Shown piece by piece: positions 38,650 through 62,094 of a stretch of DNA of 64,000 nucleotides. The position numbers and the translations under genes were made by a program. This DNA comes from Sipunculus nudus. Taxonomy: Eukaryota > Annelida > Sipuncula > Golfingiida > Sipunculidae. Every line of letters begins with the position of its first letter. Within the stretch, counting starts at the first letter, position 1. A model generated the notes under the pieces. It saw only the letters and a program-made list of their open reading frames with translations. It was not told the origin of the DNA and ran no database searches. The stretch lies in contig CM049315.1 in the NCBI GenBank assembly GCA_026874595.1, positions 15,132,164-15,196,163 of the forward strand, written 5' to 3'.

Positions 38650-38860
38650 GTTGTTAGGGCGTCACGTGAAACGCCATTAAAGAGCAACGTATGCCCTACA
38701 CCTTTTAAATGCAACAAGCGTCAAGCGTTTGGTTGCTTTGTAAGGGCATTAAGAGACGCCAATTTGAGAAGGACATATCTTCAACAATATTTGAATGAAA
38801 CAGTTCCATGCATTTGATTGCATAGTTTAGGGGCCATAAGAAGCATATTTGGAGTCATTA
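38650..38860. repeat. Degenerate ~90-bp tandem repeat, second cluster
   Basis: About two units related to 36,961-37,245: 'agggcgtcacgtgaaacgcc', then 'gcaacgtatgccctacacc', 'aatgcaacaagcgtcaagcg' and 'ttggttgctttgtaaggg'. The two clusters flank 1.4 kb of non-repetitive sequence in the same orientation. Confidence 0.55.
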
Positions 38861-39246
38861 ACTTGGTTATTTTGTTTGGCCGCCATAAGTTGCAGTTTTG
38901 AATAAAAGAACAACAATGGAGGTTACCACAAATAATTATGAAATTGTTATGATTTTTTATCATTTAATAATAATAATAATTGATACTTTTTGGTAAATGA
39001 TGTGCTCTAAAATGCTATTACAAGCAAACAATTGCATAGATAATGAATGACTATGAAAAACATAATTGTTAAAATAAAGACACAGGATGTCTTGAGCATT
39101 TTTCAAAAGCCTAGGCTCTCAGCTAGTCTTAGTTCCAAAGGTAATGAATTATACAAAGTAGGACCTGCCACATAAAATGCTCTGTTGACAGCTGTAGCAG
39201 ACTGTACGTTGTACAAAGAGTAAGTACTGAGGCATTTAATAAATTT
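38861..39246. other. Unique sequence before the 9-kb tandem units
   Basis: AT-rich with no features seen. The match to the later units begins abruptly at 39,247. Confidence 0.6.
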
Positions 39247-39690
39247 GTGAACATTGCTCATATGTCAGAAGTGGTTCAATTTATAGGTCTGAAATTTGTC
39301 ATGATCATCCATCTTGGGAATTCCTTATACACCAGACATGTGGCGCCATCTACCTTCCCGTTTTTGTAGAATACATTTATGCCCTTTCTTTGGGAGTGGT
39401 TTGCCGCATTGGCTTGAAATTGTGCATACCCATAGATACCTCAATCTCGTTATTAAGACTGGTGGTGACATCTGCAATCGTTTTTGCGTGGTGTCCATCT
39501 GTCCGTTTGTGTATATGTGGAGTGGATGGATGTCTCAGCCTTAAATTTTGCATATTTATCTGTCTTGGATAGCTTTTTTGTAGACCAGACAGGTGGCGCC
39601 ACCTGCTGTTCCGTGTTTTAAGAATACATTGATGCACTTTTTTCTCAGTAGTGGATTGGTGTCTTGGCCTTAGATTTTGTTTGGTTTATC
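39247..39690. repeat. ~140-bp minisatellite, unit 1 head
   Basis: Three to four diverged copies of a 127-150 bp unit marked by 'gctcatatctcagg(a/g)', 'tggttcaatgtat', 'ttgaaattgtgcat', 'ctcgttattaagactggtgg' and 'ggcgccatctgc'. The same array is complete at 47,560-48,690. Confidence 0.8.
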
Positions 39691-40864
39691 TTCTATAGAC
39701 CTGTTTTTGGTGAAAATTGCACATATATGAGGAGATTAATTGGCATCACTGATGCAACAAATTTGTGTCATGTCATGGCAGGGACATTTAATGCCTTACT
39801 TTACCCATGCCTCTGTGATTTGGCGGAAACACGTAGTCGCTTGTCGCCTTCCCATATTCTATTTTTATGTTAAATTATAATAATGATGATGATAAAAATA
39901 ATAATTATAAAAATAATAATAATAAAAAGAAAGAAATAAATAGAAAATTAATCAATGTTAAAAAAAGTTTGTCGTCACGAAATAGTCCTCTCTGCCTCAC
40001 AAAATACTTTTCTTGGCAGCCCCGGCGATATATGGTGTGACGATTCCTCAAAGCTCCCATCATCAAGAACAGGACCAGGTACATGCGACATGCCTAGCTA
40101 CAGGTCCGGGTGAGGTACAGGATTTTAGAGTATCCAGGTATAGGGTCAGTAGTTTATCAAATATATGGCAACAGAGAAATAGACCTCCGATCAATTCAAA
40201 GACACTTTAACAAAAATAATTGCATGATTTCATCTATATGTATGTCATCATGTGAACTTTCAGTATTATACCAGCACCTAGAATACATAATACCCGATAC
40301 ATATAGAGGTATCAGGTACCGCCTACTCTGACATCCAGGTTGAAATACTCTTTATCTGGTACCTGCATCAAACCTGATCGTCATAAGACAAGTGGCGCCG
40401 CCTTGCGTCGACACAACAAGATAACCGGGCATACCGCACTCGGACAATGTGTTCGACAGCTTGAGTAATGTATATTAATGTCCCTGTGTGATCAGTCGTA
40501 GTATATAATATCTATTCACTGACGGGTGAGATTGTCATTTTTTGTATTCAGAGACGACTTTATTTTTGATGCCGCTATTAATATGTAACGGGTATTTGTT
40601 TTTTACATCGCCGGGACAAAACAGTGTTTCTTGCATCGCAGGACAAGACCGACAGAACAGTGTTTTGTTTAAACTGGTTGCAAAAATGAGTGGTCGTTTA
40701 AACACAAGACCAAAATGCACTGGGTCGTCAACGACTCGCTTGTTTGTTGCTAAGTCCGGCCTATGTTATTTAAATTATTTAAATAAGCTTCATTAACAAT
40801 CAAACTAACACCTGACAGTGTGCAGAGTGGCGGAAACCCCGGACCAGAAGTCCGTTCAGCCGTC

Positions 40865-41370
40865 ACTCTGCCATAGGACTCTGTTGAAACCGCACGTTTC
40901 ACTACACTGGTCTGTTTTCATCATCAGGTGAGAATTTTTTTTTTTCATTCCTTTAGTTTCTTACAGTTGCCTTGCTAATTTCAGTCATTCATTCCCTTTT
41001 CTTCTAATATTTCATCCAACAGGTCTTAAGACTCACAAAGTCATATTTTAGTGTTTTGTACAAAATTGTACATGATGCCTTCATTTGAAGGTTTGGTTTA
41101 AGCTGTTTTCTCAAATGGTACATAATGCCTTCATCGGAAGGTTTAAGGTTTAAGCTGTATTCTAAAATGGTACATAATGCCTTCATCGGAGGTTTAGGGT
41201 TTAAGCTGTTTTCTATGTGTTTCTGTGTTTTAACTCTGTATCGCTTATATGTAATTTATTTTGACCGCTAGCATTAATGTTCATCAGGTCACTATGTATA
41301 TAAGACTCTGCCACAGAGCTTTGTGGAAACCACACGTTTCACTACACTGGTCTGTTTTCATCATCAGGTC
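40865..41370. repeat. 65-bp direct repeats and 49-bp triplet repeat
   Basis: A block with core 'cactacactggtctgttttc' plus 'atcatcaggt' occurs at 40,865-40,929 and again at 41,306-41,370 (440 bp apart), about 85% identical over 65 bp. Between them, 41,069-41,215 holds three tandem copies of a 49-50 bp unit starting 'ggtacataatgccttcatcg'. The arrangement recurs in units 2 (from 49,759) and 3 (from 58,951). Confidence 0.8.
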
Positions 41371-41482
41371 CATTAAAGGATTCCATTGGCAATAGTCATT
41401 TGTCCTTGTTTGTCGAGTTCGGAGAGTGGTCACGATCGGTGACGAATTCCCGCAACATCGGTCTGAGCACAGGCACCTGTCG

Positions 41483-41490
41483 TATAAATA
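41483..41490 (+). promoter_or_regulatory. TATA box before the unit 1 open frame
   Basis: TATAAATA, an exact TATA consensus, lies 139 bp before the ATG at 41,629. Copies are at 50,377 and 59,569. No transcript evidence is available. Confidence 0.4.
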
Positions 41491-41628
41491 GTGTCTTTAC
41501 GGGTATATAGAGGGTTAACGGGTATATAAGGCATGGGACCCCCGGCCCTACTATACTAATAATAGAGAAAGGCACACCACTTTTCCAGGCGACCGCTGTG
41601 ACCCGGCCACTTCACCAGCTGAATTTAT

Positions 41629-42094
41629 ATGTTTACCTTAGTAAAATGCACAAGAAACACTGATCGTTACAAAGCAGAAGGATTGTTGCACCTACTGAAA
41701 CCAGCAATAGGTTCATACAAGCTCGCTGTTATTAATTCCTTGTCTGGTTTGTTGACGAAATCCGTCAGATTCTGTCCAAATGCATGCCGGGTCCCATGTT
41801 CACTTGACTTCTTGCATTATCACAATCCGGCATCGTACATACGACATCCCGTTTTTTCGTGTATACCTCAAAAACATCAACAAATATCCACGTGCATACC
41901 CATTGAGCCCGGAACTTTTATCATCAGTGCACCTAAACCGGAAGTTTGCACTGCATGGATTATTCATTTGGACAGAATCTGACGGATTTCGTGTGGGTCT
42001 GAGCCCCGCATCGGAGCTGGACCGTTACAAATATACTACGTTTGACCTGGGTGATTGCATACGCCTGATTTTTCTTTACATGTATCAGGCATAA
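41629..42094 (+). CDS. Uncharacterised open frame in unit 1, frameshifted
   Basis: A plus-strand ATG frame runs 117 residues (to 41,982). An overlapping frame continues to 42,094, so two frames together correspond to the single 154-residue frame of unit 3 (59,715-60,179). The change is one A in an A-run (near 41,883): three A here and in unit 2, two in unit 3. The predicted product has no signal peptide, no transmembrane segment and no domain I recognise. A TATA box lies 139 bp upstream. The two arms of a 28-bp inverted repeat lie inside the frame, so it may be transposon-related sequence rather than a host gene. Coding status is uncertain. Confidence 0.3.
41755..41992. repeat. 28-bp perfect inverted repeat, unit 1
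   Basis: 'gaaatccgtcagattctgtc' lies within the left arm 41,755-41,782, and its reverse complement lies within the right arm 41,965-41,992. All 28 positions pair. The 182-bp loop shows no further long pairing. The same pair is kept perfectly in units 2 and 3. It could be the ends of a small MITE, though a target duplication is not clear, or an RNA hairpin. Confidence 0.85.
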
Positions 42095-44491
42095 AAAAGT
42101 TCCGAATCCTCATATTTGTCAACATAATGTCGTATAATTTACTCTATGCGAGTGAAGGTGCGCGCTCGCGTGTGTGTAATGGTGTGTGTATGTGTCTTTT
42201 CACGGAGCGAGTATAGAATCCGGTCTACTTGAACGAGGTAATGGGTGTATACGGACGGACTTAATGATGATTAGGATTCATGTAATGGAGAAGTTAGAGG
42301 CAGGTCGATGTCATATCATCAGGCATGTCATGGCTTATGCTGATTACTACTTGCATGAGACGGTCCAGTCAGTTTAGACCCATCTTGGAAATGAAGACCG
42401 TATTCTGTACTCGGGCCCTTTTGACTATAAATGGCATTTTGTACCAACTGACCTTGGTGATAAGACATGACCTTGTTGTATGATGACTGGTGTTGTATGT
42501 AACGTATACAGATGACTGGTGGCACATCCGTAATAACAAAGGTCTGTTTCTAACCACAGACTTATCAATTACAACTGAACTTAGCAAGGTAAATACTTCC
42601 TGGTTTCGAACAATCATCTCGACGCAATAGCACAGTTTAACATTAAGATAAGACGGGGCACTACTCAGTGAGCGCATACCTCTTCCAAACCAGGGTAAAC
42701 TCGATTTTCCTTTTTACAGGGAAAGTAGCTGTTTCTTACCGCAGACTGATGTACAAAATGGACTAAAATGACTCTCTATCAATATTCTGATTGTAACTAA
42801 TAAGGCCAGCTATATGTTTAAAAATGCCTTGCACAGGATTAGACAGACGCACACACAGGCATACAGAAAATGGAAACAAATGGATTGCTGTTGGTTAAAA
42901 AAGAGGGAAATGAGAAACTGCCGACAGTCCACATTAACACGACAAACTAAACCTGTGAAAACAATATTAAAGTGTGTAAAGGTGATATAAATGAGGGTGT
43001 TTCATAACCAGCAGTCAGATTGTCATCTGGATTGCTTGTCTGTATACACAACTGAGTTTAAAAGAAATTAAACATATAAGAAGTCATAACATATCTTTTG
43101 AACCAAATAAAGTGAGGTAATCAGGTCCCATAAATCACTGGCTTATAGACGCTTCTTGCTGTGCTGGCAGGGGTGGGGCTGCTTCCCCATAAAATGTAGT
43201 ATGCTGGCTTATTTCAATTCGAACAACGGTATCAAAAACTCATCAGTCCAGAGCTGCTTGGTGTTTCGCCTCAGTGGTTAATTAAGAGATGATCACCTGG
43301 ATCACTTTGCCTTTTTGTGGGACCACTAAACTCACTGATCAACCATTTATTTAATACAGCAATAAACTGTCCGGCGATATCAGAATGACATCTGCAATGA
43401 TCCTCAATGTTACCATTTGCCCTTGAAATATTGATTATGGAGAATAAGTATAGCGGCAGGTGTCATCAATAAAACTAATTAACCCTAATTAGCCTCCCAG
43501 GGATTCTCAGGTTTTACAATTGCTGACACCGGTGACGAAGGTGACGAGATAAATATGTGCCCGTGTACAGCGAACTGATAATGTTAGCACTACGGTGACT
43601 GATATAGGACACAGAAAAAAATATTTATCTCGAGATCTCGATAATACCTTGTGTACAAGTAGCCTGTGGATAAAATGTTAATATGTCAAAGTGGCGTTAT
43701 AAGAACCTTTCCCAGCCAGGATTACCTTCACTTCTTTAATATGTATATGCAGAGTTAGCCGGTATTACAAAAAAATCTATAAATATGGCAGGTATATAGT
43801 GACTTTAAGACCAAAGCAGAGCATTTTGTCGAAATAATTTAACCGTTTATTTATGAATATAAATCATTTATGAAAATAGGTTGACTTAAGGTAAGGCGCT
43901 GTTTGTTATGACCTCGTATCCTGCATTGCAACACCAGAGGGGAGCACTGTATTTTTGTCCAATCAGATGAAACTTTGTGCTGGAAGACAAAGCCAAGCGA
44001 GGAATACACGGAGCCAATCATATCCATTTCTTTTTGAGTGACAGCTCATCCCCCAGCGTAACCGTCTGAACAGGCCACAGGCTCAGAGAGAATTGCCCCT
44101 GACGTGGTTTGCTTAGGGCCTTGGGCACATAGGATGCTCGGCCGGTGAGCTGTAATTCAAACGAAACGTAACAACAAAGGCTGCGTGCACAACTCGCTGG
44201 CTGGTTTTAGTTCTGCAGACAACAGATACATGGCTACGCTAAAACAGTCATAATGTCATAATCGAATCGGTCCATGATGCGAGAATGCAGAGGGAGCAAT
44301 TTAAATTCGACCGGAAACTCATCAAACGGCGCTTGAAGCGCGGCAATGGGCGGAGCCAGGATGCCTGTCGAGTGTTTGTTTATTGGCATCTGATTGGCTG
44401 CTTGTCACATCGTACGCACGTTTATTTCAGTGGACAACAAACCGCCATCTGGTGTCTAAATATATCATAAACGGTCAAAGCTGGCAGCGTG
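42095..44491. other. Unassigned part of unit 1
   Basis: Minus-strand open frames at 42,328-42,525 and 42,369-42,677 overlap each other in different frames. Neither has recognised features, and unit 3 changes their upstream ends. Around 44,350-44,400 a GC box (gggcggagc) is followed by two inverted CCAAT motifs (tttattggc, gattggctg), which could be a promoter for a plus-strand transcript. The 61-residue frame at 44,285-44,470 overlaps it and is not convincing. Equivalent sequence is at 50,989-53,385. Confidence 0.4.
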
Positions 44492-44514
44492 AAAATCAGT
44501 TGCTTCTTTAGAAG
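44492..44514 (+). repeat. Truncated left arm of an inverted repeat, unit 1
   Basis: 'aaaatcagttgcttctttag' plus three bases pairs with the distal part of the right arm at 46,521-46,572. In unit 2 the left arm is complete (53,386-53,437). The truncation coincides with the 308-bp segment missing from unit 1. Confidence 0.75.
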
Positions 44515-44843
44515 TTTTCTTGCCGATAAACAACATAGGTTCGACAGCTTCATTGCTTGGGAAATATGGTAGATTTAACGATTGTCTAAAGAAGCATTCT
44601 ACCGTGAAATTATATGAAACATGCTTGGTATTATGAAGCTCAGGGGACATCGTGAAACACGATGTTTATTCAGCTGAGGGTATAGTCTTAGGCATGTTTA
44701 CAGACACATGCGTTATTTGTATACAAAATGTGACGAAATTTAATATACAGATTTTGCTAAAAATTTGTCATGTGGTCTTTGGATAAAAATCTTTACTTCT
44801 TTTTTTAGAAAGAAAATTCCTTTTGAGGCGTGGATATGGGAGA

Positions 44844-44959
44844 TCAATGGGGATTATAGTGGACCCGAGTGACCGCGTATTGCACGGAAATGCCTTTTTG
44901 GCAGGACATGCGCGCTGGCCACGGTCTTAAAAGGCCAGTGAAAATCCCCGAAGCGCCTC
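44844..44959 (-). CDS. Candidate second exon after the signal-peptide exon, unit 1
   Basis: On the minus strand an acceptor CTTTTTCAG|GAGGCG ends at 44,960 and would join the donor at 45,281 in phase. The frame then stays open for 37 residues, contains one Cys and two Pro, and ends at TGA (44,844-44,846). The resulting secreted peptide would be about 85 residues with a 321-bp intron. Unit 2 has the same exon (54,046-54,161) with one Val-to-Leu change at 54,066. At least one other AG in the intron also gives a short open frame, so this join is only one option. The true second exon may lie elsewhere. Confidence 0.25.
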
Positions 44960-45280
44960 CTGAAAAAGCGTCACAGGCGTGGAGGTCCTTGCAGCACAAA
45001 AGAAATAGGGGCACCTTATGGGGGAAATATTAAAATTATTAATTATTCAGCTTTGTGGGGCATATTACCGCAAAATAAAACAAACTTGTCCTAGAAGAGC
45101 ACACCAACGATACGTCTGCCGAATTTGGAGAGTCAAATCAGAACGGAAGCAGGTAAACCGTGGTCTGGAAATCTCCGTATTAATTATATTGATCAGTAAT
45201 GATGTTATAATTATATATTTTAGTTTTGAATTTCATTATTATAGTTATGACCTTTCAAATTATATTTCCGGAGAACTTAC

Positions 45281-45422
45281 CGTACTCGTTAACGGATACA
45301 GCTAGACTTCTTTCAGAATCGTCTTCACCGCTTCCTTCATCTATTAAGCTCCCTGAATCGGCGCTCTTGACATAAAACAATAAAGCCAGAAGGAGAAGCG
45401 AGGATGCACGTCCGCCAGACAT
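45281..45422 (-). CDS. Signal-peptide first exon with Ser-Gly GAG-attachment motif, unit 1
   Basis: On the minus strand, ATG at 45,422-45,420 opens 47 codons plus one base before a strong donor (TACG|GTAAGTTC, last exon base 45,281). Residues 1-20, MSGGRASSLLLLALLFYVKS, form a classical signal peptide. They are followed by 'SLIDEGSGEDDSERS', where a Ser-Gly pair is embedded in acidic residues as in glycosaminoglycan attachment sites of syndecans and other proteoglycan cores. I infer the N-terminus of a secreted or membrane proteoglycan-like protein. Syndecan is one possibility, but no transmembrane or cytoplasmic exon was found. Upstream (minus sense), TATATTTTGCAG at about 45,449 could be an acceptor for a 5' UTR exon. 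The exon is duplicated at 54,483-54,624 without any change that I can see. Confidence 0.6.
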
Positions 45423-46019
45423 CTCTAACAGCTAACTGCCTGGAACACTGCAAAATATACCGGCAATCTTTTATTTAAGTCATATCATACAGAGGTTTGC
45501 TTGTGTAACTCAATGAAAGATTTTTTTAAGGTTTGAAAGACACCTATAAATCACAGAAATTGGTTTTGGAAACTGGATCCGTCATTTGTATTGGCAAGGT
45601 CGTGTACCTTTACAAAGAAGTTTCATTCTATCTGAACATATCGTACATATCAGGTAACACTCTGGTGTTATGCATGCCATGAAAGAGTACTCGACATATT
45701 CAGTCGCCCAAGTATTTAGGATTATGTATTAGCAACATAGGAAACATATACACACCTTTCTTCATATACTTATGTAGATATGGAAACATGTAAATATTAG
45801 TTATTTAATTACCCGTTATTACTATATAGTCGGATATATATATCAATATTTATCAAGGCAGAACGCTTTATTTTTTACAAATATTGGTATTATTGTTTTA
45901 ATGTATTGTATTTCATTATATTATTCAATTCAATAAATACAAATGCTCCACAAACAACAACCAAACACACATAGACACTTTTAGCGATTATATTAAACGG
46001 CCTAATACTAACCTATATA

Positions 46020-46460
46020 GGAAGCCAACGGAGCTACACATTGACAAGGTAGGTGTCGAGGATGTCTGGGCAACGTTCAGAGATGTAGTCCAATCCACCT
46101 CATTGGACGTCCTTGGACCAACAATTATGAGGCACCAGGACTGGTTTGATGAAAACAATGACCAGATACAAGAGCTCTTTTCAGAAAAACACAGGCTTCA
46201 TCTTGTGTATTACAGAAACCCACCTCATCCTCAAAGAAAGCGTCATTCACAAATATCCACCGTTTGGTCAAGACTAAACTGTGCAACATGCAAGATAGCT
46301 GGCTCAGAGACAAATCAGCAGAGATCACGACATATGCAGATATGCATGACTAAGAGATGCAAGGACGCTCTCAAAGTGTATGGACTGCAGTCTTCTGACA
46401 CATCTCCTCTCCTGACTGCTGATAGATCGGCCTTGATCACTCACAAGTCACATATTTATA
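46020..46460 (+). pseudogene. Non-LTR retrotransposon (LINE) ORF2 relic, unit 1
   Basis: The plus strand encodes 'HQDWFDENNDQIQELFSEKH', typical of the linker between the endonuclease and reverse-transcriptase domains of invertebrate LINE ORF2 proteins. After a frameshift it gives 'MQDSWLRDKSAEITTYADMH' (about 46,288-46,349, another frame). It then returns to the first frame with 'DALKVYGLQSSDTSPLLTAD', which precedes the RT domain in such proteins. At least two frame changes and the absence of endonuclease and RT domains show it is a dead fragment of about 145 codons. The family is probably of the Jockey/CR1/RTE-like range but I cannot assign it more closely. Confidence 0.75.
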
Positions 46461-46520
46461 TAAATATATTTTTATCTTGATAAACACATATATAAAATTA
46501 AGATATATATATATATATAT

Positions 46521-46572
46521 TACGCCCCCGAGGCAGCAGAAATCTTGCGCTTCTAAAGAAGCAACTGATTTT
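46521..46572 (-). repeat. Right arm of 52-bp inverted repeat, unit 1
   Basis: Runs from 'tacgcccccgaggcagcaga' to 'gaagcaactgatttt'. Its reverse complement forms the left arm at 53,386-53,437 of unit 2 with a few mismatches. In unit 1 the left arm is truncated. Confidence 0.8.
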
Positions 46573-46612
46573 ATAGGAAGTAGCCCTATAGGTAAAGCGC
46601 TGTGTAAAGAGC

Positions 46613-46613
<1 letters not shown>

Positions 46614-46696
<83 letters not shown>
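46614..46696. repeat. (TA)n microsatellite, unit 1
   Basis: About 80 bp of TA with one AAA interruption. The unit 2 counterpart (55,817-55,891) is shorter and uninterrupted. Confidence 0.95.
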
Positions 46697-46698
<2 letters not shown>

Positions 46699-47559
46699 TG
46701 TAACAGCTCAGTTTAAGTGTTCCATTCAAACCCCCTTAAAAAATTCTAATAGAAATAGAGTAATCATAATTATATTTCATTGACATGTTTCTATATGGAT
46801 AATTATAGTTCTTCCCGAATGAAGTTTCTAACGATTCGTTGAATGAAGCCGATGTTAAAGCGTGCATGTGACATTTGTGACAGACCTATATGACCCGAGT
46901 AAAGATCCTGTCATGTCTGATTTATGAATTATTTCACAGTTATATAACGGGGTGTGTAAATAACTATGTTATCAATATGAGCAATGTAAGGCTTTATACT
47001 GATTAAAAGTGTCACTGCTGCCATTAAGAGAACACTCCGTAAATATAGAATATCCTCTCTATAGATTTTCTAATCAATTTATATCATGTGTAGGTGATGA
47101 AAATTACTCAGTGAAAGGTCGTTTTTATTCTATACTATTAATTTCAGAATTCAGATCATATGATCCCTTCACAAATTAAACCTATGTAAGCAATGCTAAC
47201 AAATAGCTCGTTAAACTGCATGAATACGTCAGGGCAAGTGCAAATGTGCTTTGGAGCTGAGAAATAGATGAAAATGAGTAATAAATATGATATAAAAATA
47301 GATTTTACTGGTGGTAGTTTACAGATATAATGAGACTGGCCCATGAGAGTCGTAAGGTTGTTGTGTTTAAATCAGATCCTAATTGTATCCGCCAAAACAG
47401 TTTTGTGGATATTATATATTTACGCGGGTTCCGTCGCCGCCGCGCGTTCGTTTCCGGAGACCTTCTCTAAGACCCTTAGACCGATCTTTCCCAAAAAAAA
47501 CCCGGGGTAGTTATTCACTCACATGTGTAGATGTGCGTAAGAAAGACATGTGGCGCCAA
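46697..47559. other. Unassigned part of unit 1 before the minisatellite
   Basis: AT-rich and without recognised features except a short GC-rich block 'gtcgccgccgcgcgttcg' near 47,433. A 62-residue minus frame (47,156-47,344) is not convincing. The unit 2 counterpart is 55,892-56,739. Confidence 0.45.
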
Positions 47560-48690
47560 CGGCAATCCTCTCTGTGCGGTATGAATCTTGGTGTCTTTGT
47601 GATAACTGCCCATATCTCAGGAGTGTTTGAATGTAATGAGCTGAAATTTTGTATGTCCATAATTGCGCCGCATACAATCATTTTTGCATGGCGTCCACCC
47701 ATGCATTTGCCATCTGTTAATTTAAATGAATGGTTCAATGTATCGGGATGAAATTGTGCATGTCTGAAGTTTTTGGATAAGTCCATCTCGTATTCAAGAC
47801 TGTCGTATTCTGTAATCGTTTTTGCCTAGCGTCCATCCGTTCGTCTGCTTTGGGGAAGATAGCTCATATCTCAGGAATGGTTCAATGTATTTGTCTAAAA
47901 TTTGACATGTCCATCCAGCTTGGATACCTGCATCTCGTTCTTAAGACTGGTTGTGCGATCTGTAATCGTTTTTGCGTAACGTCCATCCGTACGTCTGCTT
48001 TTGGTAAAAATTGCTCATATCTGAGGATTGGTTCTGCAATTGTACATATTCATAGATCTTCAATATCTCCATCATGTACTTATGACTGGTGGCGCCATCT
48101 GCAACCTACTATGTGGCATCCATCCGTGCATTTGCTTTTCGTGAACATTGCTCATATGTCAGAAGTGGTTCAATTTATAGGTCTGAAATTTGTCATGATC
48201 AACCATCTTGGGAATTCCTTATACACCAGACATGTGGCGCCATCTACCTTCCCGTTTTTGTAGAATACATTTATGCCCTTTCTTTGGGAGTGGTTTGCCG
48301 CATTGGCTTGAAATTGTGCATACCCATAGATACCTCAATCTCGTTATTAAGACTGGTGGTGACATCTGCAATCGTTTTTGCGTGGCGTCCATCTGTCCGT
48401 TTGTGTAGATGTGGAGTGGATGGATGTCTCAGCCTTAAATTTTGCATATTTATCTGTCTTGGATAGCTTTTTTGTAGACCAGACAGGTGGCGCCACCTGC
48501 TGTTCCGTGTTTTAAGAATACATTGATGCACTTTTTTCTCAGTAGTGGATTGGTGTCTTGGCCTTAGATTTTGTTTGGTTTATCTTCTATAGACCTGTTT
48601 TTTGTGAAAATTGCACATATATGAGGTGATTAATTGGCATCACTGATGCAACAAATTTGTGTCATGTCATGGCAGGGACATTTAATGCCT
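47560..48690. repeat. ~140-bp minisatellite across the unit 1/unit 2 junction
   Basis: About eight units of 127-150 bp, each with a 'gctcatatctcagg'-type block (for example 47,608, 47,862, 48,012, 48,150), a 'tgaaatt(t/g)tgcat' block and a GGCGCCA block. The junction of the 9-kb units (48,141) lies inside it. Open frames of up to 137 residues on both strands here reflect the repeat and are not credible genes. Confidence 0.85.
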
Positions 48691-50522: not shown

Positions 50523-50988
50523 ATGTTTACCTTAGTAAAATGCACAAGAAACACTGATCGTTACAAAGCAGAAGGATTGTTGCACCTACTGAAACCAGCA
50601 ATAGGTTCATACAAGCTCGCTGTTATTAATTCCTTGTCTGGTTTGTTGACGAAATCCGTCAGATTCTGTCCAAATGCATGCCGGGTCCCATGTTCACTTG
50701 ACTTCTTGCATTATCACAATCCGGCATCGTACATACGACATCCCGTTTTTTCGTGTATACCTCAAAAACATCAACAAATATCCACGTGCATACCCATTGA
50801 GCCCGGAACTTTTATCATCAGTGCACCTAAACCGGAAGTTTGCACTGCATGGATTATTCATTTGGACAGAATCTGACGGATTTCGTGTGGGTCTGAGCCC
50901 CGCATCGGAGCTGGACCGTTACAAATATACTACGTTTGACCTGGGTGATTGCATACGCCTGATTTTTCTTTACATGTATCAGGCATAA
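50523..50988 (+). CDS. Uncharacterised open frame in unit 2, frameshifted
   Basis: Copy of the frame at 41,629-42,094 with the same extra A, so it is also split into a 117-residue frame (50,523-50,876) and an overlapping 104-residue frame (50,674-50,988). TATA box at 50,377 and inverted-repeat arms at 50,649-50,676 and 50,859-50,886. No recognised domain. Confidence 0.3.
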
Positions 50989-53408
50989 AAAAGTTCCGAA
51001 TCCTCATATTTGTCAACATAATGTCGTATAATTTACTCTATGCGAGTGAAGGTGCGCGCTCGCGTGTGTGTAATGGTGTGTGTATGTGTCTTTTCACGGA
51101 GCGAGTATAGAATCCGGTCTACTTGAACGAGGTAATGGGTGTATACGGACGGACTTAATGATGATTAGGATTCATGTAATGGAGAAGTTAGAGGCAGGTC
51201 GATGTCATATCATCAGGCATGTCATGGCTTATGCTGATTACTACTTGCATGAGACGGTCCAGTCAGTTTAGACCCATCTTGGAAATGAAGACCGTATTCT
51301 GTACTCGGGCCCTTTTGACTATAAATGGCATTTTGTACCAACTGACCTTGGTGATAAGACATGACCTTGTTGTATGATGACTGGTGTTGTATGTAACGTA
51401 TACAGATGACTGGTGGCACATCCGTAATAACAAAGGTCTGTTTCTAACCACAGACTTATCAATTACAACTGAACTTAGCAAGGTAAATACTTCCTGGTTT
51501 CGAACAATCATCTCGACGCAATAGCACAGTTTAACATTAAGATAAGACGGGGCACTACTCAGTGAGCGCATACCTCTTCCAAACCAGGGTAAACTCGATT
51601 TTCCTTTTTACAGGGAAAGTAGCTGTTTCTTACCGCAGACTGATGTACAAAATGGACTAAAATGACTCTCTATCAATATTCTGATTGTAACTAATAAGGC
51701 CAGCTATATGTTTAAAAATGCCTTGCACAGGATTAGACAGACGCACACACAGGCATACAGAAAATGGAAACAAATGGATTGCTGTTGGTTAAAAAAGAGG
51801 GAAATGAGAAACTGCCGACAGTCCACATTAACACGACAAACTAAACCTGTGAAAACAATATTAAAGTGTGTAAAGGTGATATAAATGAGGGTGTTTCATA
51901 ACCAGCAGTCAGATTGTCATCTGGATTGCTTGTCTGTATACACAACTGAGTTTAAAAGAAATTAAACATATAAGAAGTCATAACATATCTTTTGAACCAA
52001 ATAAAGTGAGGTAATCAGGTCCCATAAATCACTGGCTTATAGACGCTTCTTGCTGTACTGGCAGGGGTGGGGCTGCTTCCCCATAAAATGTAGTATGCTG
52101 GCTTATTTCAATTCGAACAACGGTATCAAAAACTCATCAGTCCAGAGCTGCTTGGTGTTTCGCCTCAGTGGTTAATTAAGAGATGATCACCTGGATCACT
52201 TTGCCTTTTTGTGGGACCACTAAACTCACTGATCAACCATTTATTTAATACAGCAATAAACTGTCCGGCGATATCAGAATGACATCTGCAATGATCCTCA
52301 ATGTTACCATTTGCCCTTGAAATATTGATTATGGAGAATAAGTATAGCGGCAGGTGTCATCAATAAAACTAATTAACCCTAATTAGCCTCCCAGGGATTC
52401 TCAGGTTTTACAATTGCTGACACCGGTGACGAAGGTGACGAGATAAATATGTGCCCGTGTACAGCGAACTGATAATGTTAACACTACGGTGACTGATATA
52501 GGACACAGAAAAAAATATTTATCTCGAGATCTCGATAATACCTTGTGTACAAGTAGCCTGTGGATAAAATGTTAATATGTCAAAGTGGCGTTATAAGAAC
52601 CTTTCCCAGCCAGGATTACCTTCACTTCTTTAATATGTATATGCAGAGTTAGCCGGTATTACAAAAAAATCTATAAATATGGCAGGTATATAGTGACTTT
52701 AAGACCAAAGCAGAGCATTTTGTCGAAATAATTTAACCGTTTATTTATGAATATAAATCATTTATGAAAATAGGTTGACTTAAGGTAAGGCGCTGTTTGT
52801 TATGACCTCGTATCCTGCATTGCAACACCAGAGGGGAGCACTGTATTTTTGTCCAATCAGATGAAACTTTGTGCTGGAAGACAAAGCCAAGCGAGGAATA
52901 CACGGAGCCAATCATATCCATTTCTTTTTGAGTGACAGCTCATCCCCCAGCGTAACCGTCTGAACAGGCCACAGGCTCAGAGAGAATTGCCCCTGACGTG
53001 GTTTGCTTAGGGCCTTGGGCACATAGGATGCTCGGCCGGTGAGCTGTAATTCAAACGAAACGTAACAACAAAGGCTGCGTGCACAACTCGCTGGCTGGTT
53101 TTAGTTCTGCAGACAACAGATACATGGCTACGCTAAAACAGTCATAATGTCATAATCGAATCGGTCCATGATGCGAGAATGCAGAGGGAGCAATTTAAAT
53201 TCGACCGGAAACTCATCAAACGGCGCTTGAAGCGCGGCAATGGGCGGAGCCAGGATGCCTGTCGAGTGTTTGTTTATTGGCATCTGATTGGCTGCTTGTC
53301 ACATCTTACGCACGTTTATTTCAGTGGACAACAAACCGCCATCTGGTGTCTAAATATATCATAAACGGTCAAAGCTGGCAGCGTGAAAATCAGTTGCTTC
53401 TTTAGAAG

Positions 53409-53716
53409 CGCAAGATTTCTGCTTCCTCGGGAGCGTAGTGGAAAATCCAAGGCTCTGTCTGATGCATATTTTTGTATTGAGCAGATACATATGAACTAAA
53501 TGACGCATATTTTAATCCCAAGGTTTTTGCAGGAACTTTTGTCATGTGTTTCACTTATATGATATAAAGATTACTTCTGCAAGAATTATCCAGGAACACC
53601 CTCCCCAAATATCAACACAGAAAGAAAAATTACCTTATTCCAGAATCTCACAAAAAATAAATTTTGGAAAGAGACGTAAGGCATATACAGGGAGTTACTA
53701 ATTTTTAAGTGAGAAG
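53409..53716. other. 308-bp segment present in unit 2, absent in unit 1
   Basis: The segment sits between two AGAAG motifs. Unit 1 has a single AGAAG and continues directly into 'ttttcttgccgat'. Because the segment includes the rest of the inverted-repeat arm whose partner exists in both units, unit 2 probably keeps the older form and unit 1 has a deletion between the 5-bp repeats. The deletion alters the overlapping minus-strand open frame (44,465-44,650 against 53,586-53,852), which I do not consider coding. Confidence 0.8.
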
Positions 53717-54045
53717 TTTTCTTGCCGATAAACAACATAGGTTCGACAGCTTCATTGCTTGGGAAATATGGTAGATTTAACGATTGTCTAAAGAAGCATT
53801 CTTCCGTGAAATTATATGAAACATGCTTAGTATTATGAAGCTCAGGGGACATCGTGAAACACGATGTTTATTCAGCTGAGGGTATAGTCTTAGGCATGTT
53901 TACAGACACATGCGTTATTTGTATACAAAATGTGACGAAATTTAATATACAGATTTTGCTAAAAATTTGTCATGTGGTCTTTGGATAAAAATCTTTACTT
54001 CTTTTTTTAGAAAGAAAATTCCTTTTGAGGCGTGGATATGGGAGA

Positions 54046-54161
54046 TCAATGGGGATTATAGTGGAGCCGAGTGACCGCGTATTGCACGGAAATGCCTTTT
54101 TGGCAGGACATGCGCGCTGGCCACGGTCTTAAAAGGCCAGTGAAAATCCCCGAAGCGCCTC
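54046..54161 (-). CDS. Candidate second exon, unit 2
   Basis: Same acceptor, frame and stop as 44,844-44,959, with one coding substitution (Val to Leu codon at 54,066). Support is limited to a compatible phase and a 37-codon open frame. Confidence 0.25.
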
Positions 54162-54482
54162 CTGAAAAAGCGTCACAGGCGTGGAGGTCCTTGCAGCACA
54201 AAAGAAATAGGGGCACCTTATGGGGGAAATATTAAAATTATTAATTATTCAGCTTTGTGGGGCATATTACCGCAAAATAAAACAAACTTGTCCTAGAAGA
54301 GCACACCAACGATACGTCTGCCGAATTTGGAGAGTCAAATCAGAACGGAAGCAGGTAAACCGTGGTCTGGAAATCTCCGTATTAATTATATTGATCAGTA
54401 ATGATGTTATAATTATATATTTTAGTTTTGAATTTCATTATTATAGTTATGACCTTTCAAATTATATTTCCGGAGAACTTAC

Positions 54483-54624
54483 CGTACTCGTTAACGGATA
54501 CAGCTAGACTTCTTTCAGAATCGTCTTCACCGCTTCCTTCATCTATTAAGCTCCCTGAATCGGCGCTCTTGACATAAAACAATAAAGCCAGAAGGAGAAG
54601 CGAGGATGCACGTCCGCCAGACAT
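54483..54624 (-). CDS. Signal-peptide first exon with Ser-Gly GAG-attachment motif, unit 2
   Basis: Second copy of the exon at 45,281-45,422, 9,202 bp away in the same orientation. ATG at 54,624-54,622, donor after 54,483. The 47 codons look identical to unit 1, as do the flanking upstream sequence and donor. Two identical first exons in tandem could act as alternative promoters for one downstream gene, as the starts of two gene copies, or could reflect an assembly that kept two haplotypes. If the downstream gene has only one set of later exons (below 39 kb), the unit 1 exon would be the nearer start. Unit 3 ends before it reaches this exon. Confidence 0.6.
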
Positions 54625-55221
54625 CTCTAACAGCTAACTGCCTGGAACACTGCAAAATATACCGGCAATCTTTTATTTAAGTCATATCATACAGAGGTTT
54701 GCTTGTGTAACTCAATGAAAGATTTTTTTAAGGTTTGAAAGACACCTATAAATCACAGAAATTGGTTTTGGAAACTGGATCCGTCATTTGTATTGGCAAG
54801 GTCGTGTACCTTTACAAAGAAGTTTCATTCTATCTGAACATATCGTACATATCAGGTAACACTCTGGTGTTATGCATGCCATGAAAGAGTACTCGACATA
54901 TTCAGTCGCCCAAGTATTTAGGATTATGTATTAGCAACATAGGAAACATATACACACCTTTCTTCATATACTTATGTAGATATGGAAACGTGTAAATATT
55001 AGTTATTTAATTACCCGTTATTACTATATAGTCGGATATATATATCAATATTTATCAAGGCAGAACGCTTTATTTTTTACAAATATTGGTATTATTGTTT
55101 TAATGTATTGTATTTCATTATATTATTCAATTCAATAAATACAAATGCTCCACAAACAACAACCAAACACACATAGACACTTTTAGCGATTATATTAAAC
55201 GGCCTAATACTAACCTATATA

Positions 55222-55662
55222 GGAAGCCAACGGAGCTACACATTGACAAGGTAGGTGTCGAGGATGTCTGGGCAACGTTCAGAGATGTAGTCCAATCCAC
55301 CTCATTGGACGTCCTTGGACCAACAATTATGAGGCACCAGGACTGGTTTGATGAAAACAATGACCAGATACAAGAGCTCTTTTCAGAAAAACACAGGCTT
55401 CATCTTGTGTATTACAGAAACCCACCTCATCCTCAAAGAAAGCGTCATTCACAAATATCCACCGTTTGGTCAAGACTAAACTGTGCAACATGCAAGATAG
55501 CTGGCTCAGAGACAAATCAGCAGAGATCACGACATATGCAGATATGCATGACTAAGAGATGCAAGGACGCTCTCAAAGTGTATGGACTGCAGTCTTCTGA
55601 CACATCTCCTCTCCTGACTGCTGATAGATCGGCCTTGATCACTCACAAGTCACATATTTATA
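55222..55662 (+). pseudogene. LINE ORF2 relic, unit 2
   Basis: Copy of 46,020-46,460 with the same frameshifts, which shows the relic was already dead before the 9-kb duplication. No additional LINE domains flank it. Confidence 0.75.
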
Positions 55663-55814
55663 TAAATATATTTTTATCTTGATAAACACATATATAAAAT
55701 TAAGATATATATATATATATATTACGCCCCCGAGGCAGCAGAAATCTTGCGCTTCTAAAGAAGCAACTGATTTTATAGGAAGTAGCCCTATAGGTAAAGC
55801 GCTGTGTAAAGAGC

Positions 55815-55816
<2 letters not shown>

Positions 55817-55891
<75 letters not shown>
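55817..55891. repeat. (TA)n microsatellite, unit 2
   Basis: About 75 bp of TA. Length and purity differ from unit 1. Confidence 0.95.
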
Positions 55892-55892
<1 letters not shown>

Positions 55893-56739
55893 TGTAACAG
55901 CTCAGTTTAAGTGTTCCATTCAAACACCCTAAAAAATTCTAATAGAAATAGAGTAATCATAATTATATTTCATTGACATGTTTCTATATGGATAATTATA
56001 GTTCTTCCCGAATGAAGTTTCTAACGATTCGTTGAATGAAGCCGATGTTAAAGCGTGCATGTGACATTTGTGACAGACCTATATGACCCGAGTAAAGATC
56101 CTGTCATGTCTGATTTATGAATTATTTCACAGTTATATAACGGGGTGTGTAAATAACTATGTTATCAATATGAGCAATGTAAGGCTTTATACTGATTAAA
56201 AGTGTCACTGCTGCCATTAAGAGAACACTCCGTAAATATAGAATATCCTCTCTATAGATTTTCTAATCAATTTATATCATGTGTAGGTGATGAAAATTAC
56301 TTAGTGAAAGGTCGTTTTTATTCTATACTATTAATTTCAGAATTCAGATCATATGATCCCTTCACAAATTAAACCTATGTAAGCAATGCTAACAAATAGC
56401 TCGTTAAACTGCATGAATACGTCAGGGCAAGTGCAAATGTGCTTTGGAGCTGAGAAATAGATGAAAATGAGTAATAAATATGATATAAAAATAGATTTTA
56501 CTGGTGGTAGTTTACAGATATAATGAGACTGGCCCATGAGAGTCGTAAGGTTGTTGCGTTTAAATCAGATCCTAATTGTATCCGCCAAAACAGTTTTGTG
56601 GATATTATATATTTACGCGGGTTCCGTCGCCGCCGCGCGTTCGTTTCCGGAGACCTTCTCTAAGACCCTTAGACCGATCTTTCCCAAAAAAACCCGGGGT
56701 AGTTATTCACTCACATGTGTAGATGTGCGTAAGAAAGAC

Positions 56740-57880
56740 ATGTGGCGCCAACGGCAATCCTCTCTGTGCGGTATGAATCTTGGTGTCTTTGTGATAACTG
56801 CCCATATCTCAGGAGTGTTTGAATGTAATGAGCTGAAATTTTGTATGTCCATAATTGCGCCGCATACAATCATTTTTGCATGGCGTCCACCCATGCATTT
56901 GCCATCTGTTAATTTAAATGAATGGTTCAATGTATCGGGATGAAATTGTGCATGTCTGAAGTTTTTGGATAAGTCCATCTCGTATTCAAGACTGTCGTAT
57001 TCTGTAATCGTTTTTGCCTAGCGTCCATCCGTTCGTCTGCTTTGGGGAAGATAGCTCATATCTCAGGAATGGTTCAATGTATTTGTCTAAAATTTGACAT
57101 GTCCATCCAGCTTGGATACCTGCATCTCGTTCTTAAGACTGGTTGTGCGATCTGTAATCGTTTTTGCGTAACGTCCATCCGTACGTCTGCTTTTGGTAAA
57201 AATTGCTCATATCTGAGGATTGGTTCTGCAATTGTACATATTCATAGATCTTCAATATCTCCATCATGTACTTATGACTGGTGGCGCCATCTGCAACCTA
57301 CTTTGTGGCATCCATCCGTGCATTTGCTTTTCGTGAACATTGCTCATATGTCAGAAGTGGTTCAATTTATAGGTCTGAAATTTGTCATGATCATCCATCT
57401 TGGGAATTCCTTATACACCAGACATGTGGCGCCATCTACCTTCCCGTTTTTGTAGAATACATTTATGCCCTTTCTTTGGGAGTGGTTTGCCGCATTGGCT
57501 TGAAATTGTGCATACCCATAGATACCTCAATCTCGTTATTAAGACTGGTGGTGACATCTGCAATCGTTTTTGCGTGGTGTCCATCTGTCCGTTTGTGTAT
57601 ATGTGGAGTGGATGGATGTCTCAGCCTTAAATTTTGCATATTTATCTGTCTTGGATAGCTTTTTTGTAGACCAGACAGGTGGCGCCACCTGCTGTTCCGT
57701 GTTTTAAGAATACATTGATGCACTTTTTTCTCAGTAGTGGATTGGTGTCTTGGCCTTAGATTTTGTTTGGTTTATCTTCTATAGACCTGTTTTTGGTGAA
57801 AATTGCACATATATGAGGAGATTAATTGGCATCACTGATGCAACAAATTTGTGTCATGTCATGGCAGGGACATTTAATGC
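56740..57880. repeat. ~140-bp minisatellite across the unit 2/unit 3 junction
   Basis: Counterpart of 47,560-48,690 with the unit junction at 57,333. Same unit order, a few substitutions. Confidence 0.85.
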
Positions 57881-60800
57881 CTTACTTTACCCATGCCTCT
57901 GTGATTTGGCGGAAACACGTAGTCGCTTGTCGCCTTCCCATATTCTATTTTTATGTTAAATTATAATAATGATGATGATAAAAATAATAATTATAAAAAT
58001 AATAATAATAAAAAGAAAGAAATAAATAGAAAATTAATCAATGTTAAAAAAAGTTTGTCGTCACGAAATAGTCCTCTCTGCCTCACAAAATACTTTTCTT
58101 GGCAGCCCCGGCGATATATGGTGTGACGATTCCTCAAAGCTCCCATCATCAAGAACAGGACCAGGTACATGCGACATGCCTAGCTACAGGTCCAGGTGAG
58201 GTACAGGATTTTAGAGTATCCAGGTATAGGGTCAGTAGTTTATCAAATATATGGCAACAGAGAAATAGACCTCCGATCAATTCAAAGACACTTTAACAAA
58301 AATAATTGCATGATTTCATCTATATGTATGTCATCATGTGAACTTTCAGTATTATACCAGCACCTAGAATACATAATACCCGATACATATAGAGGTATCA
58401 GGTACCGCCTACTCTGACATCCAGGTTGAAATACTCTTTATCTGGTACCTGCATCAACCCTGATCGTCATAAGACAAGTGGCGCCGCCTTGCGTCGACAC
58501 AACAAGATAACCGGGCATACCGCACTCGGACAATGTGTTCGACAGCCTGAGTAATGTATATTAATGTCCCTGTGTGATCAGTCGTAGTATATAATATCTA
58601 TTCACTGACGGGTGAGATTGTCATTTTTTGTATTCAGAGACGACTTTATTTTTGATGCCGCTATTAATATGTAACGGGTATTTGTTTTTTACATCGCCGG
58701 GACAAAACAGTGTTTCTTGCATCGCAGGACAAGACCGACAGAACAGTGTTTTGTTTAAACTGGTTGCAAAAATGAGTGGTCGTTTAAACACAAGACCAAA
58801 ATGCACTGGGTCGTCAACGACTCGCTTGTTTGTTGCTAAGTCCGGCCTATGTTATTTAAATTATTTAAATAAGCTTCATTAACAATCAAACTAACACCTG
58901 ACAGTGTGCAGAGTGGCGGAAACCCCGGACCAGAAGTCCGTTCAGCCGTCACTCTGCCATAGGACTCTGTTGAAACCGCACGTTTCACTACACTGGTCTG
59001 TTTTCATCATCAGGTGAGAAATTTTTTTTTTCATTCCTTTAGTTTCTTACAGTTGCCTTGCTAATTTCAGTCATTCATTCCCTTTTCTTCTAATATTTCA
59101 TCCAACAGGTCTTAAGACTCACAAAATCATATTTTAGTGTTTTGTACAAAATTGTACATGATGCCTTCATTGGAAGGTTTGGTTTAAGCTGTTTTCTCAA
59201 ATGGTACATAATGCCTTCATCGGAAGGTTTAAGGTTTAAGCTGTATTCTAAAATGGTACATAATGCCTTCATCGGAGGTTTAAGGTTTAAGCTGTTTTCT
59301 ATGTGTTTCTGTGTTTTAACTCTGTATCGCTTATATGTAATTTATTTTGACCGCTAGCATTAATGTTCATCAGGTCACTATGTATATAAGACTCTGCCAC
59401 AGAGCTTTGTGGAAACCACACGTTTCACTACACTGGTCTGTTTTCATCATCAGGTCCATTAAAGGATTCCATTGGCAATAGTCATTTGTCCTTGTTTGTC
59501 GAGTTCGGAGAGTGGTCACGATCGGTGACGAATTCCCGCAACATCGGTCTGAGCACAGGCACCTGTCGTATAAATAGTGTCTTTACGGGTATATAGAGGG
59601 TTAACGGGTATATAAGGCATGGGACCCCCGGCCCTACTATACTAATAATAGAGAAAGGCACACCACTTTTCCAGGCGACCGCTGTGACCCGGCCACTTCA
59701 CCAGCTGAATTTATATGTTTACCTTAGTAAAATGCACAAGAAACACTGATCGTTACAAAGCAGAAGGATTGTTGCACCTACTGAAACCAGCAATAGGTTC
59801 ATACAAGCTCGCTGTTATTAATTCCTTGTCTGGTTTGTTGACGAAATCCGTCAGATTCTGTCCAAATGCATGCCGGGTCCCATGTTCACTTGACTTCTTG
59901 CATTATCACAATCCGGCATCGTACATACGACATCCCGTTTTTTCGTGTATACCTCAAAAACATCAACAATATCCACGTGCATACCCATTGAGCCCGGAAC
60001 TTTTATCATCAGTGCACCTAAACCGGAAGTTTGCACTGCATGGATTATTCATTTGGACAGAATCTGACGGATTTCGTGTGGGTCTGAGCCCCGCATCGGA
60101 GCTGGACCGTTACAAATATACTACGTTTGACCTGGGTGATTGCATACGCCTGATTTTTCTTTACATGTATCAGGCATAAAAAAGTTCCGATTCCTCATAT
60201 TTGTCAACATAATGTCGTATAATTTACTCTATGCGAGTGAAGGTGCGCGCTCGCGTGTGTGTAATGGTGTGTGTATGTGTCTTTTCACGGAGCGAGTATA
60301 GAATCCGGTCTACTTAACGAGGTAATGGGTGTATACGGACGGACGTAATGATGATTAGGATTCATGTAATGGAGAAGTTAGAGGCAGGTCGATGTCATAT
60401 CATCAGGCATGTCATGGCTTATGCTGATTACTACTTGCATGAGACGGTCCAGTCAGTTTAGACCCATCTTGGAAATGAAGACCGTATTCTGTACTCGGGC
60501 CCTTTTGACTATAAATGGCATTTTGTACCAACTGACCTTGGTGATAAGACATGACCTTGTTGTATGATGACTGGTGTTGTATGTAACGTATACAGATGAC
60601 TGGTGGCACATCCGTAATAACAAAGGTCTGTTTCTAACCACAGACCTATCAGTTACAACTGGACTCAACAAAGTAAATACTTCCTAGTTTGGAACAAACA
60701 TCCCAGAAGCACAGTTTAACATTAAGATAAGACGGGGCACTACTCAGTGAGCGCACACCTCTTCCAAAACAGGCTAAACTCTTCTTTTTTACAGGAAATG

Positions 60801-62094
60801 TAGCTGTTCCTTACCGCAGACTGATGTACAAAGCGTACAAAAATGACTCTCTATCAGTAATCTGATTGGAACTGATAAGGTCAGCTTTATATTTAAATGC
60901 CTTGCACAGGATTAGACAGACACACACACAGGCATACAGAAAATGGAAACAAATGGATTGCTGTTGGGAAATAAGGAGGGAAGTGAGAATCTACCGACAG
61001 TCCACATTTACATGAAAAAAATAAACGTGTGGACACAGTTTTAAAGTGTGTCAAAATCCCCTGCGTGTTGGTGGTCCTAACTACTTGTTATGATAAAATT
61101 GAAATGCAGGTATGACAACGCTGAGTATAACTGAACACGATTATATTGCTGTTAAAAACCTTGATTAAGTGTTTTAAATGAGGGCGTTTCATAACCAGAA
61201 ATCATTATGTAAGGTTTGAATTGTCGTGCTAGTCAGTATACACAAGTGAGTTAAATAGAAATTAAACTCATCGAAAGTTATAACATATCTTTTGTGCCAA
61301 ATGAAGTGAGGTAATCAGGTCCCATAAATCACTGGCTTATAGACGCTTCTTGCTGTGCTGGCAGGGGTGGGGCTGCTTCCCCATAAAATGCAGTATGCTG
61401 GCTTATTTCAATTCGAACAACGGTATAAAAACTCATCAGTCCAGAGCTGCTTGGTGTTTCGCCTCAGTGGTTAATTAAGAGATAATTACCTGGATCACTT
61501 TGCCTTTTTGTGGGACCACTAAACTCACTGATCAACCATTTATTTAATACAGCAATAAATTGTCCGGCGATATCATAATGACATATGCAATGATCCTCAA
61601 TGTTACCATTTGCCCTTGAAATATTGATTATGGAGAATAAGTATAGCGGCAGGTGTCATCAATAAAACTAATTAACCCTAATTAGCCTCCCAGGGATTCT
61701 CAGGTTTTACAATTGCTGACACCGGTGACGAAGGTGACGAGATAAATATGTGCCCGTGTACAGCGAACTGATAATGTGAGCACTACGGTAACTGATATAG
61801 AACACAGAAAAAAATATTTATCTCGAGATTTATCTCGATAATACCTTGTGTACAAGTAGCCTGTGGATAAAATGTTAATACGTCAAAGTGGCGTTATAAG
61901 AACCTTTCCCAGCCAGGATTACCTTCACTTCTTTAATATGTATATGCAGAGTTAGCCGGTATTACAAAAAAATCTATAAATATGGCAGGTGAATAGTGAC
62001 TTTAAGACCAAAGCAGAGCATTTTGTCGAAATAATTAAACCGTTTATTTATGAATATAAATCATTTATGAATATAGGTTGACTTAAGGTAATCT
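57333..62094. repeat. 9-kb tandem unit 3, partial (4.76 kb)
   Basis: Matches units 1 and 2 from their start to the equivalent of about 43,896, then leaves the alignment at 'gacttaaggtaa' (62,094). It lacks the part that carries the signal-peptide exon and LINE relic. From 57,333 to about 60,645 it is almost identical to the others. From about 60,646 to 61,310 it is strongly diverged and carries about 115 extra bases (around 61,040-61,170). After that it is moderately diverged. Confidence 0.95.
59715..60179 (+). CDS. Uncharacterised 154-residue open frame in unit 3
   Basis: The uninterrupted version of the frame seen broken in units 1 and 2. It begins MFTLVKCTRNTDRYKAEG and ends at a TAA just before 'aaaagttccg'. 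It is mildly basic with several Tyr and Pro residues and a hydrophobic C-terminal end ('CIRLIFLYMYQA'), but no domain, signal peptide or Cys pattern that I recognise. A TATA box (59,569) precedes it. An open frame of this length could still arise by chance, because the inverted-repeat arms (59,841-59,868 and 60,050-60,077) dominate its middle. Confidence 0.35.
   Translation: MFTLVKCTRNTDRYKAEGLLHLLKPAIGSYKLAVINSLSGLLTKSVRFCPNACRVPCSLDFLHYHNPASYIRHPVFSCIPQKHQQYPRAYPLSPELLSSVHLNRKFALHGLFIWTESDGFRVGLSPASELDRYKYTTFDLGDCIRLIFLYMYQA

Follow-up and report, generated by a model that had tools for sequence, protein, structure and literature searches.

The closest well-described parallel that we found to the locus described here is provided by the CUP1 arrays of Saccharomyces cerevisiae, for which the part of the published account used here gives unequal crossover as one way in which an existing array alters its copy number (PMC4232551). 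Also relevant are false duplications in genome assemblies, whose marks, as far as the portion of PMC9516828 used here describes them, are half depth, gaps, discordant linked reads and single-copy k-mers. Our locus lies in a window of 64,000 nucleotides (the whole stretch of DNA that was analysed), corresponding to positions 15,132,164-15,196,163 of the 79.6-Mb contig CM049315.1 in the 1.43-Gb, 153-contig assembly of Sipunculus nudus. We regard it as an ordinary tandem segmental duplication with a corrected anatomy, in which an older join and a younger exchange can be told apart. It illustrates that the point where a tandem array visibly "restarts" is not necessarily its junction, and that dispersed relatives of the flanking repeats can separate native from new joins in one assembly, without reads or an outgroup.

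Copies and unit phase

Near-identical direct copies, arranged head-to-tail, are seen directly by self-BLAST and unit alignment. They start at 39,244, 48,137 and 57,329, and the third ends at 62,091; the preliminary description had already recognised them, with starts at 39,247, 48,141 and 57,333 and an end at 62,094. Divided in that phase, the copies are 8,893, 9,192 and 4,763 bp long, and same-strand matches within the window extend over 5,272 bp at 99.7% and 7,367 bp at 98.8% identity, far above chance. Units 1 and 2 differ over 8.9 kb by 23 substitutions and five indels (308 bp, an 8-bp change in a TA tract and three 1-bp indels), which agrees with the earlier statement that few substitutions, TA-tract length and one 308-bp segment distinguish them, the three 1-bp indels being additional. 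The 64,000 bases of the window contain no N. A probe from 40,001-41,000 has three full-length matches genome-wide among the 40 of 110 candidates scored, all inside the array, and its remaining matches are partial and come from a dispersed repeat within 40,576-41,000. A tandem LTR retrotransposon or another transposon spanning the whole unit was rejected because none of these scored candidates matches the full probe outside the array.

We refer to 39,244-43,894 as segments a-c, to 43,895-48,136 as X, to X without its transposon as X', and to the flanks as L and R. Four joins can then be considered: L/a (39,243/39,244), X/a (48,136/48,137 and 57,328/57,329), c/X (43,894/43,895 and 52,788/52,789) and c/R (62,091/62,092). 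The unit had been described as restarting at 39,247 and 48,141, a phase that we revise, as X/a is native, with a 147-bp repeat running across it, and 43,894/43,895 is the new join. Judged from the repeats at these joins, the true unit order is transposon fragment, X', 147-bp repeat, a, c, giving three copies in the assembly:

39,244-43,894, plus strand: copy 1 of the true unit, without its left part, starting abruptly inside the degenerate 147-bp repeat (the likeness to the repeat starts at 39,244)
43,891-52,788, plus strand: copy 2 of the true unit, full apart from a 308-bp loss (self-BLAST, unit alignment, comparison with the transposon)
52,785-62,091, plus strand: copy 3 of the true unit, full, ending at the native right flank (alignment, comparison with a dispersed repeat)

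Native and new joins

The right edge of the array lies within a repeat that is dispersed in the genome:

61,842-62,657, plus strand: dispersed repeat, unbroken through 62,091 into the right flank and cut at 43,894 and 52,788 in the other copies (genome probe, base-by-base inspection)

A probe from 61,700-62,700 finds this repeat over about 61,842-62,657 (825 candidates, 40 scored). Of the 37 scored places outside the array, 23 have a first match that, judged by its listed range, crosses 62,091, and 14 have one that begins to the right of this position; the two array copies of the repeat stop exactly at the point equivalent to 62,091. Because the repeat runs through this position in all five dispersed copies inspected, with continuous likeness (42-47 of 50 columns identical on the left, 37-44 of 50 on the right), c/R at 62,091 is a native join. 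Two different continuations of c exist in the array, the transposon and the right flank.

A second dispersed repeat bears on the X/a join:

47,596-48,762, plus strand: degenerate ~147-bp tandem repeat, crossing 48,136/48,137 in phase (repeat finding, alignment, relatives)
56,788-57,954, plus strand: second array copy of the degenerate ~147-bp repeat, crossing 57,328/57,329 (coordinates are those of the first plus 9,192)

Initial repeat detection placed this repeat at 47,596-48,540, and the likeness in relatives reaches 48,762. The stretch over the join aligns to an internal copy of the ~147-bp repeat straight across it, and the last 150 bases of X, compared with the repeat to the left and to the right of the join, outscore all 300 base shuffles in both cases. 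In the genome, where 40 of 4,585 first-look candidates were scored, the repeat is dispersed; all three relatives inspected keep their likeness across 48,137, over 47,735-48,762, 48,084-48,760 and 47,861-48,608. Since the repeat crosses the "restart" at 48,136/48,137 in phase, as it also does in three dispersed relatives, X/a only resembles a unit boundary; it is native sequence and not a duplication junction.

The left edge of the array, L/a, appears to be of another kind. Likeness to the 147-bp repeat begins at 39,244, the left edge of copy 1, and the last 150 bases of L score 16 against the repeat, compared with shuffle medians of 17-18. For the last 300 bases of L the score is matched by 8 of 300 shuffles on one side and by 167 of 300 on the other, a likeness that we take as chance. 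Among the 40 scored of 4,585 candidate genome matches of the repeat, none but the self match enters 38,700-39,243. These comparisons suggest that 39,243/39,244 is not native and represents a second break, a truncation inside the 147-bp repeat. An exact-pattern search of the assembly for the ancestral left side gave two matches, in neither of which it was recognised: one is an independent transposon insertion with its own matching 9-bp duplication, and in the other the 3' end of the transposon was not found within the 3,023 bases examined, with no match to X' beyond the transposon.

The c/X join is where a transposon begins:

43,891-43,894, plus strand: novel junction between c and the transposon, first occurrence, with the 4-bp microhomology GTAA (sequence comparison)
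52,785-52,788, plus strand: novel junction between c and the transposon, second, identical occurrence (sequence comparison)
43,891-44,509, plus strand: transposon fragment that lacks the first 46 bp of the element and has lost roughly the last 33 bp to a deletion (comparison with genomic copies)
52,785-53,437, plus strand: transposon fragment with intact 3' end (..GAGCGTA), without its first 46 bp (comparison with genomic copies)

The microhomology is directly visible: the flanking repeat, which continues through 62,091, reads AAG GTAA TCTGAG, the transposon reads TATC GTAA GGCG, and the junction reads AAG GTAA GGCG, GTAA being the sole sequence common to repeat and transposon at the join. The sequence around both junctions is identical (43,835-43,954 equals 52,729-52,848); the copies have in common a single novel junction with few shared bases, at 43,894/43,895 and 52,788/52,789. 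Outside the array, the transposon likeness starts exactly at the join, since all 38 of the scored matches have their first base at query position 192, which is 43,891 (40 of 2,851 candidates scored, the other two being the array itself). Eight fetched copies of the transposon are ~700 bp long and extend 46 bp upstream of the array start to a terminus of their own; the ends are TACGCTC and GAGCGTA, the 5' one being slightly altered in two of the eight, and target-site duplications of 8-9 bp could be read by eye in seven. We place this high-copy element, under a general label, among those MITE-like non-autonomous DNA transposons that have short terminal inverted repeats and are flanked by target-site duplications of 8-9 bp. 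Its fragments in the array start at base 47 of the element and match one full copy at 610 of 619 and 638 of 650 positions. On this evidence c/X is the new join, at which the dispersed right-edge repeat meets base 47 of the transposon.

In copy 3 the 3' end of the transposon sits cleanly within another repeat, four inspected relatives of which continue without it. The likeness of these relatives starts at 53,438, right after the transposon end, in three and at 53,442 in the fourth, and ACTAGCTGCTCCC or a close variant precedes the start of likeness in each. The clean 3' end in a host repeat, together with the cut at base 47, therefore indicates that the transposon entered by a normal insertion and that the duplication join cut it afterwards. 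A simple transposon insertion at c/X was rejected, as the element is truncated at base 47 and nothing in the native right flank matches the sequence that follows it. The relatives inspected for these comparisons are few, namely eight of the transposon, five of the right-edge repeat, four of the host repeat and three of the 147-bp repeat, and come from one assembly. As a separate observation, an internally deleted short copy of the same transposon lies in the opposite orientation inside a TA tract, with both termini present, at 46,521-46,615 and 55,723-55,817.

The transposon also bears on the largest difference between units 1 and 2:

53,404-53,716, plus strand: segment partly absent from unit 1, which has lost the 308 bp flanked by AGAAG direct repeats (53,404 and 53,712) (alignment, comparison with the transposon)

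An insertion of a transposon with a 5-bp target duplication was rejected here, because the 308 bp hold the last 33 bp of an element that begins outside them. For this reason, and given the flanking AGAAG repeats, the difference is a deletion from unit 1 and not a gain in unit 2, the presence of the segment being the older state.

Divergence among copies and content of the window

Unit alignment shows uneven divergence between copies: most of the length differs by 0.2-0.3%, the right end by ~1.8% and a single block by ~14%. The label "very recent" in the preliminary description fits most of the length (about 0.25%), but fits neither the right end (about 1.8%) nor this block (about 14%). Copy 3 differs from unit 1 by seven substitutions in 39,244-42,105, two more at 42,106 and 42,261, 78 in 42,562-43,109 and 14 in 43,110-43,894.

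The three copies are visibly mosaic. Unit 2 is the odd copy at six sites (39,308-39,960) and unit 1 at the next six (40,108-41,197, with one unit-3 site between), and after 41,197 unit 3 is odd at nearly all sites. The separation of six and six is perfect (probability 0.002), and the first 1,954 bases hold 12 of the 23 substitutions between units 1 and 2 against 5.1 expected (p 0.0016), both tests having been chosen after the data were seen. This is the pattern left by unequal exchange or conversion among copies in which the outermost right end takes no part, and haplotype switching in an assembly could leave it as well.

The block of high divergence is delimited as follows:

60,646-61,303, plus strand: divergent block of copy 3, relative to 42,562-43,109 and 51,456-52,003, including a 113-bp extra segment (alignment, realignment)

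Its edges are sharp, in surroundings that are otherwise 98-99.8% identical, and realignment of 42,500-43,250 gives 36 transitions and 36 transversions. A search of the assembly for a donor, with all 34 candidates scored, returned besides the array only stretches of ~50-65 bp at 78-85% identity, and conversion from a dispersed copy was rejected on that ground. An old lineage or a local burst of mutation could be proposed; otherwise, we have no good explanation.

The array segment is rich in repeats and holds no recognised gene. None of 40 open reading frames of unit 2 (38 of the 40 of at least 60 aa lying wholly in the unit, two frames in the TA tract being omitted, and two that cross the unit ends) matches Pfam at E 0.01, leaving the suggestion that the array duplicates the first exon of a gene with no support, although a small exon or one of a novel type is still compatible. 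For ten frames of the window, Pfam searches with E up to 1 gave three weak matches, all under the curated cut-offs. The longest frame of the unit has no convincing relative among solved structures (best E 0.36), and Rfam gave no match at gathering scores within the window, in which the one tRNA-Leu called by ARAGORN, at 33,871-33,942, lies outside the array. Probes covering part of the unit revealed dispersed repeats in roughly one third of it, and the frame at 45,902-46,477 resembles a remnant of a LINE-type retrotransposon. At 53,439-54,400, two high-copy repeat pieces (probe 1-532 and 531-957) are adjacent in the array; in some genomic copies they are ~1.8 kb apart and in others their order is swapped, an arrangement suggestive of an element with terminal repeats whose interior has been lost.

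Elsewhere in the window, 13,875-18,794 is a degenerate 4.9-kb minisatellite with a ~26-bp unit (consensus ATGTAGGCCTACTCAGCATCATACTT), and two short-repeat arrays ~1.3 kb apart, at 25,727-25,924 and 27,193-27,421, have the reverse-complementary units CCCATAATGTAATAA and TTATTACATTATGGG. The minus strand of a 48-bp tandem repeat at 6,076-7,235 reads as a 16-residue repeat rich in Ser, Thr and Asn, with open stretches of up to 160 aa, and 5 kb from it on the same strand, at 12,270-13,142, is a Ser/Thr-rich open frame of 291 aa with no Pfam match. The two are possibly exons of a mucin-like gene.

Origin of the array and known systems

We suggest that the array quite probably arose by microhomology-mediated tandem segmental duplication of a repeat-rich 9-kb segment, followed by unequal exchange. 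The ancestral order would have been P, transposon, X', 147-bp repeats, a, c and right flank. A break or a replication switch might then have fused c, at the position that corresponds to 62,091, with base 47 of the transposon lying upstream, GTAA serving as the microhomology, and so have produced copies in head-to-tail order. Unequal homologous exchange or conversion at a later stage would have multiplied the copy that carries the junction and turned the copies into mosaics, and the last copy would have retained, next to the native flank, a right end that had diverged. One undated deletion would have taken away the left part of the first copy, and another took the 308 bp of unit 1 between the AGAAG repeats. 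The order of these events, the repair pathway and the former existence of the left part of the first copy are what we infer from the joins and copies. Two points count against this explanation: the non-native left edge at 39,243/39,244 demands an extra rearrangement, and the ~14% block, for which no donor was found, is far more diverged than its surroundings.

To our knowledge, assemblers do not join sequences that overlap by only 4 bp, so the join of c to the transposon most likely comes from a real molecule. It is therefore very likely, as read from this join, that the tandem duplication is real and comprises at least two copies of a-c. How many copies are real is what the best-surviving alternative disputes, a partial assembly artefact that we hold possible, if rather doubtful. 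Under this alternative a real two-copy duplication (a-c-transposon-X'-a-c-right flank) was walked twice around a loop, once per haplotype, making units 1 and 2 alleles and one full copy false; the junction mechanism would be the same as in our preferred explanation and only the copy number would differ. Units 1 and 2 are separated by only 23 substitutions, the 308-bp deletion and four small indels, as alleles might be, and we reason that a loop in the assembly graph would copy both junctions exactly. However, the window contains no N, whereas gaps between pairs are among the marks of false duplications in the part of PMC9516828 used here, and the sites are mosaic among three copies rather than sorted into two clean haplotypes, although haplotype switching could also give a mosaic.

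More tentatively still, the array could combine an older duplication join (about 1.8%) with a younger exchange involving the third copy (about 0.25%), and be an array actively changing its copy number with the ~14% block as an old hypervariable lineage kept at its edge. If the array is actively changing, individuals would differ in copy number.

Very recent amplification and stacked haplotypes were the options named in the preliminary description, and these were the right pair; between them, the presence of GTAA within the transposon, the identity of both junction occurrences and the lack of any N favour a real duplication. Pure stacking of haplotypes in an organism without a tandem duplication seems very unlikely, since c has two different continuations and its join to the transposon at a 4-bp overlap most likely reflects a real molecule, although stacking is a general risk in heterozygous genomes according to the portion of PMC9516828 used here. 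Stacking leaves the c/X join unexplained but could account for one extra copy.

We likewise think it improbable that a circle of the unit, sealed at the c/transposon join, was cut out and then reintegrated by homology next to the original. Circularisation at this microhomology would yield the same array, and such intermediates have been proposed for human segmental duplications in the part of PMC7450558 used here; however, nothing in the sequence demands one, the right edge is native and the copies stand in simple head-to-tail order. Non-allelic homologous recombination (NAHR) between two copies of the same transposon at both unit ends is hardly credible even though the unit does start with a transposon fragment, as the sequence that faces the transposon at the join belongs to a different repeat (61,842-62,657), which shares GTAA there, the transposon is cut internally, the native right edge has no transposon, and different repeats rather than long homologous direct repeats occupy the two ancestral unit ends.

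Microhomology-mediated duplication followed by unequal exchange is thus the explanation with which we compare known systems. No gene or function is known to be affected by the array, and the exact joins given here are places at which misassembly can be tested. The element at the left of each full unit is like MITE-like transposons in its ends, TACGCTC and GAGCGTA, and in the 8-9-bp duplications of seven of the eight sampled copies; the array copies differ in having no first 46 bp, so the element is a breakpoint marker and not an insertion that explains the array. With false (heterotype) duplications, as described in the part of PMC9516828 used here, the array shares adjacent near-identical copies in one assembly, but it has no gap between copies and its join lies at a microhomology inside a transposon. 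The CUP1 arrays, in the part of PMC4232551 used here, differ in amplifying the gene for a copper-binding protein, whereas the array in S. nudus contains no recognised gene, and in having a starting state seen in one-copy strains, which here is reconstructed from dispersed repeats and with a non-native left edge. What the two have in common, within that same part of PMC4232551, is that a single junction, formed by sequences from the two ends that share little homology, defines the repeat: at most 3 bp in CUP1 types 2-5 and none in type 1, compared with 4 bp in this array.
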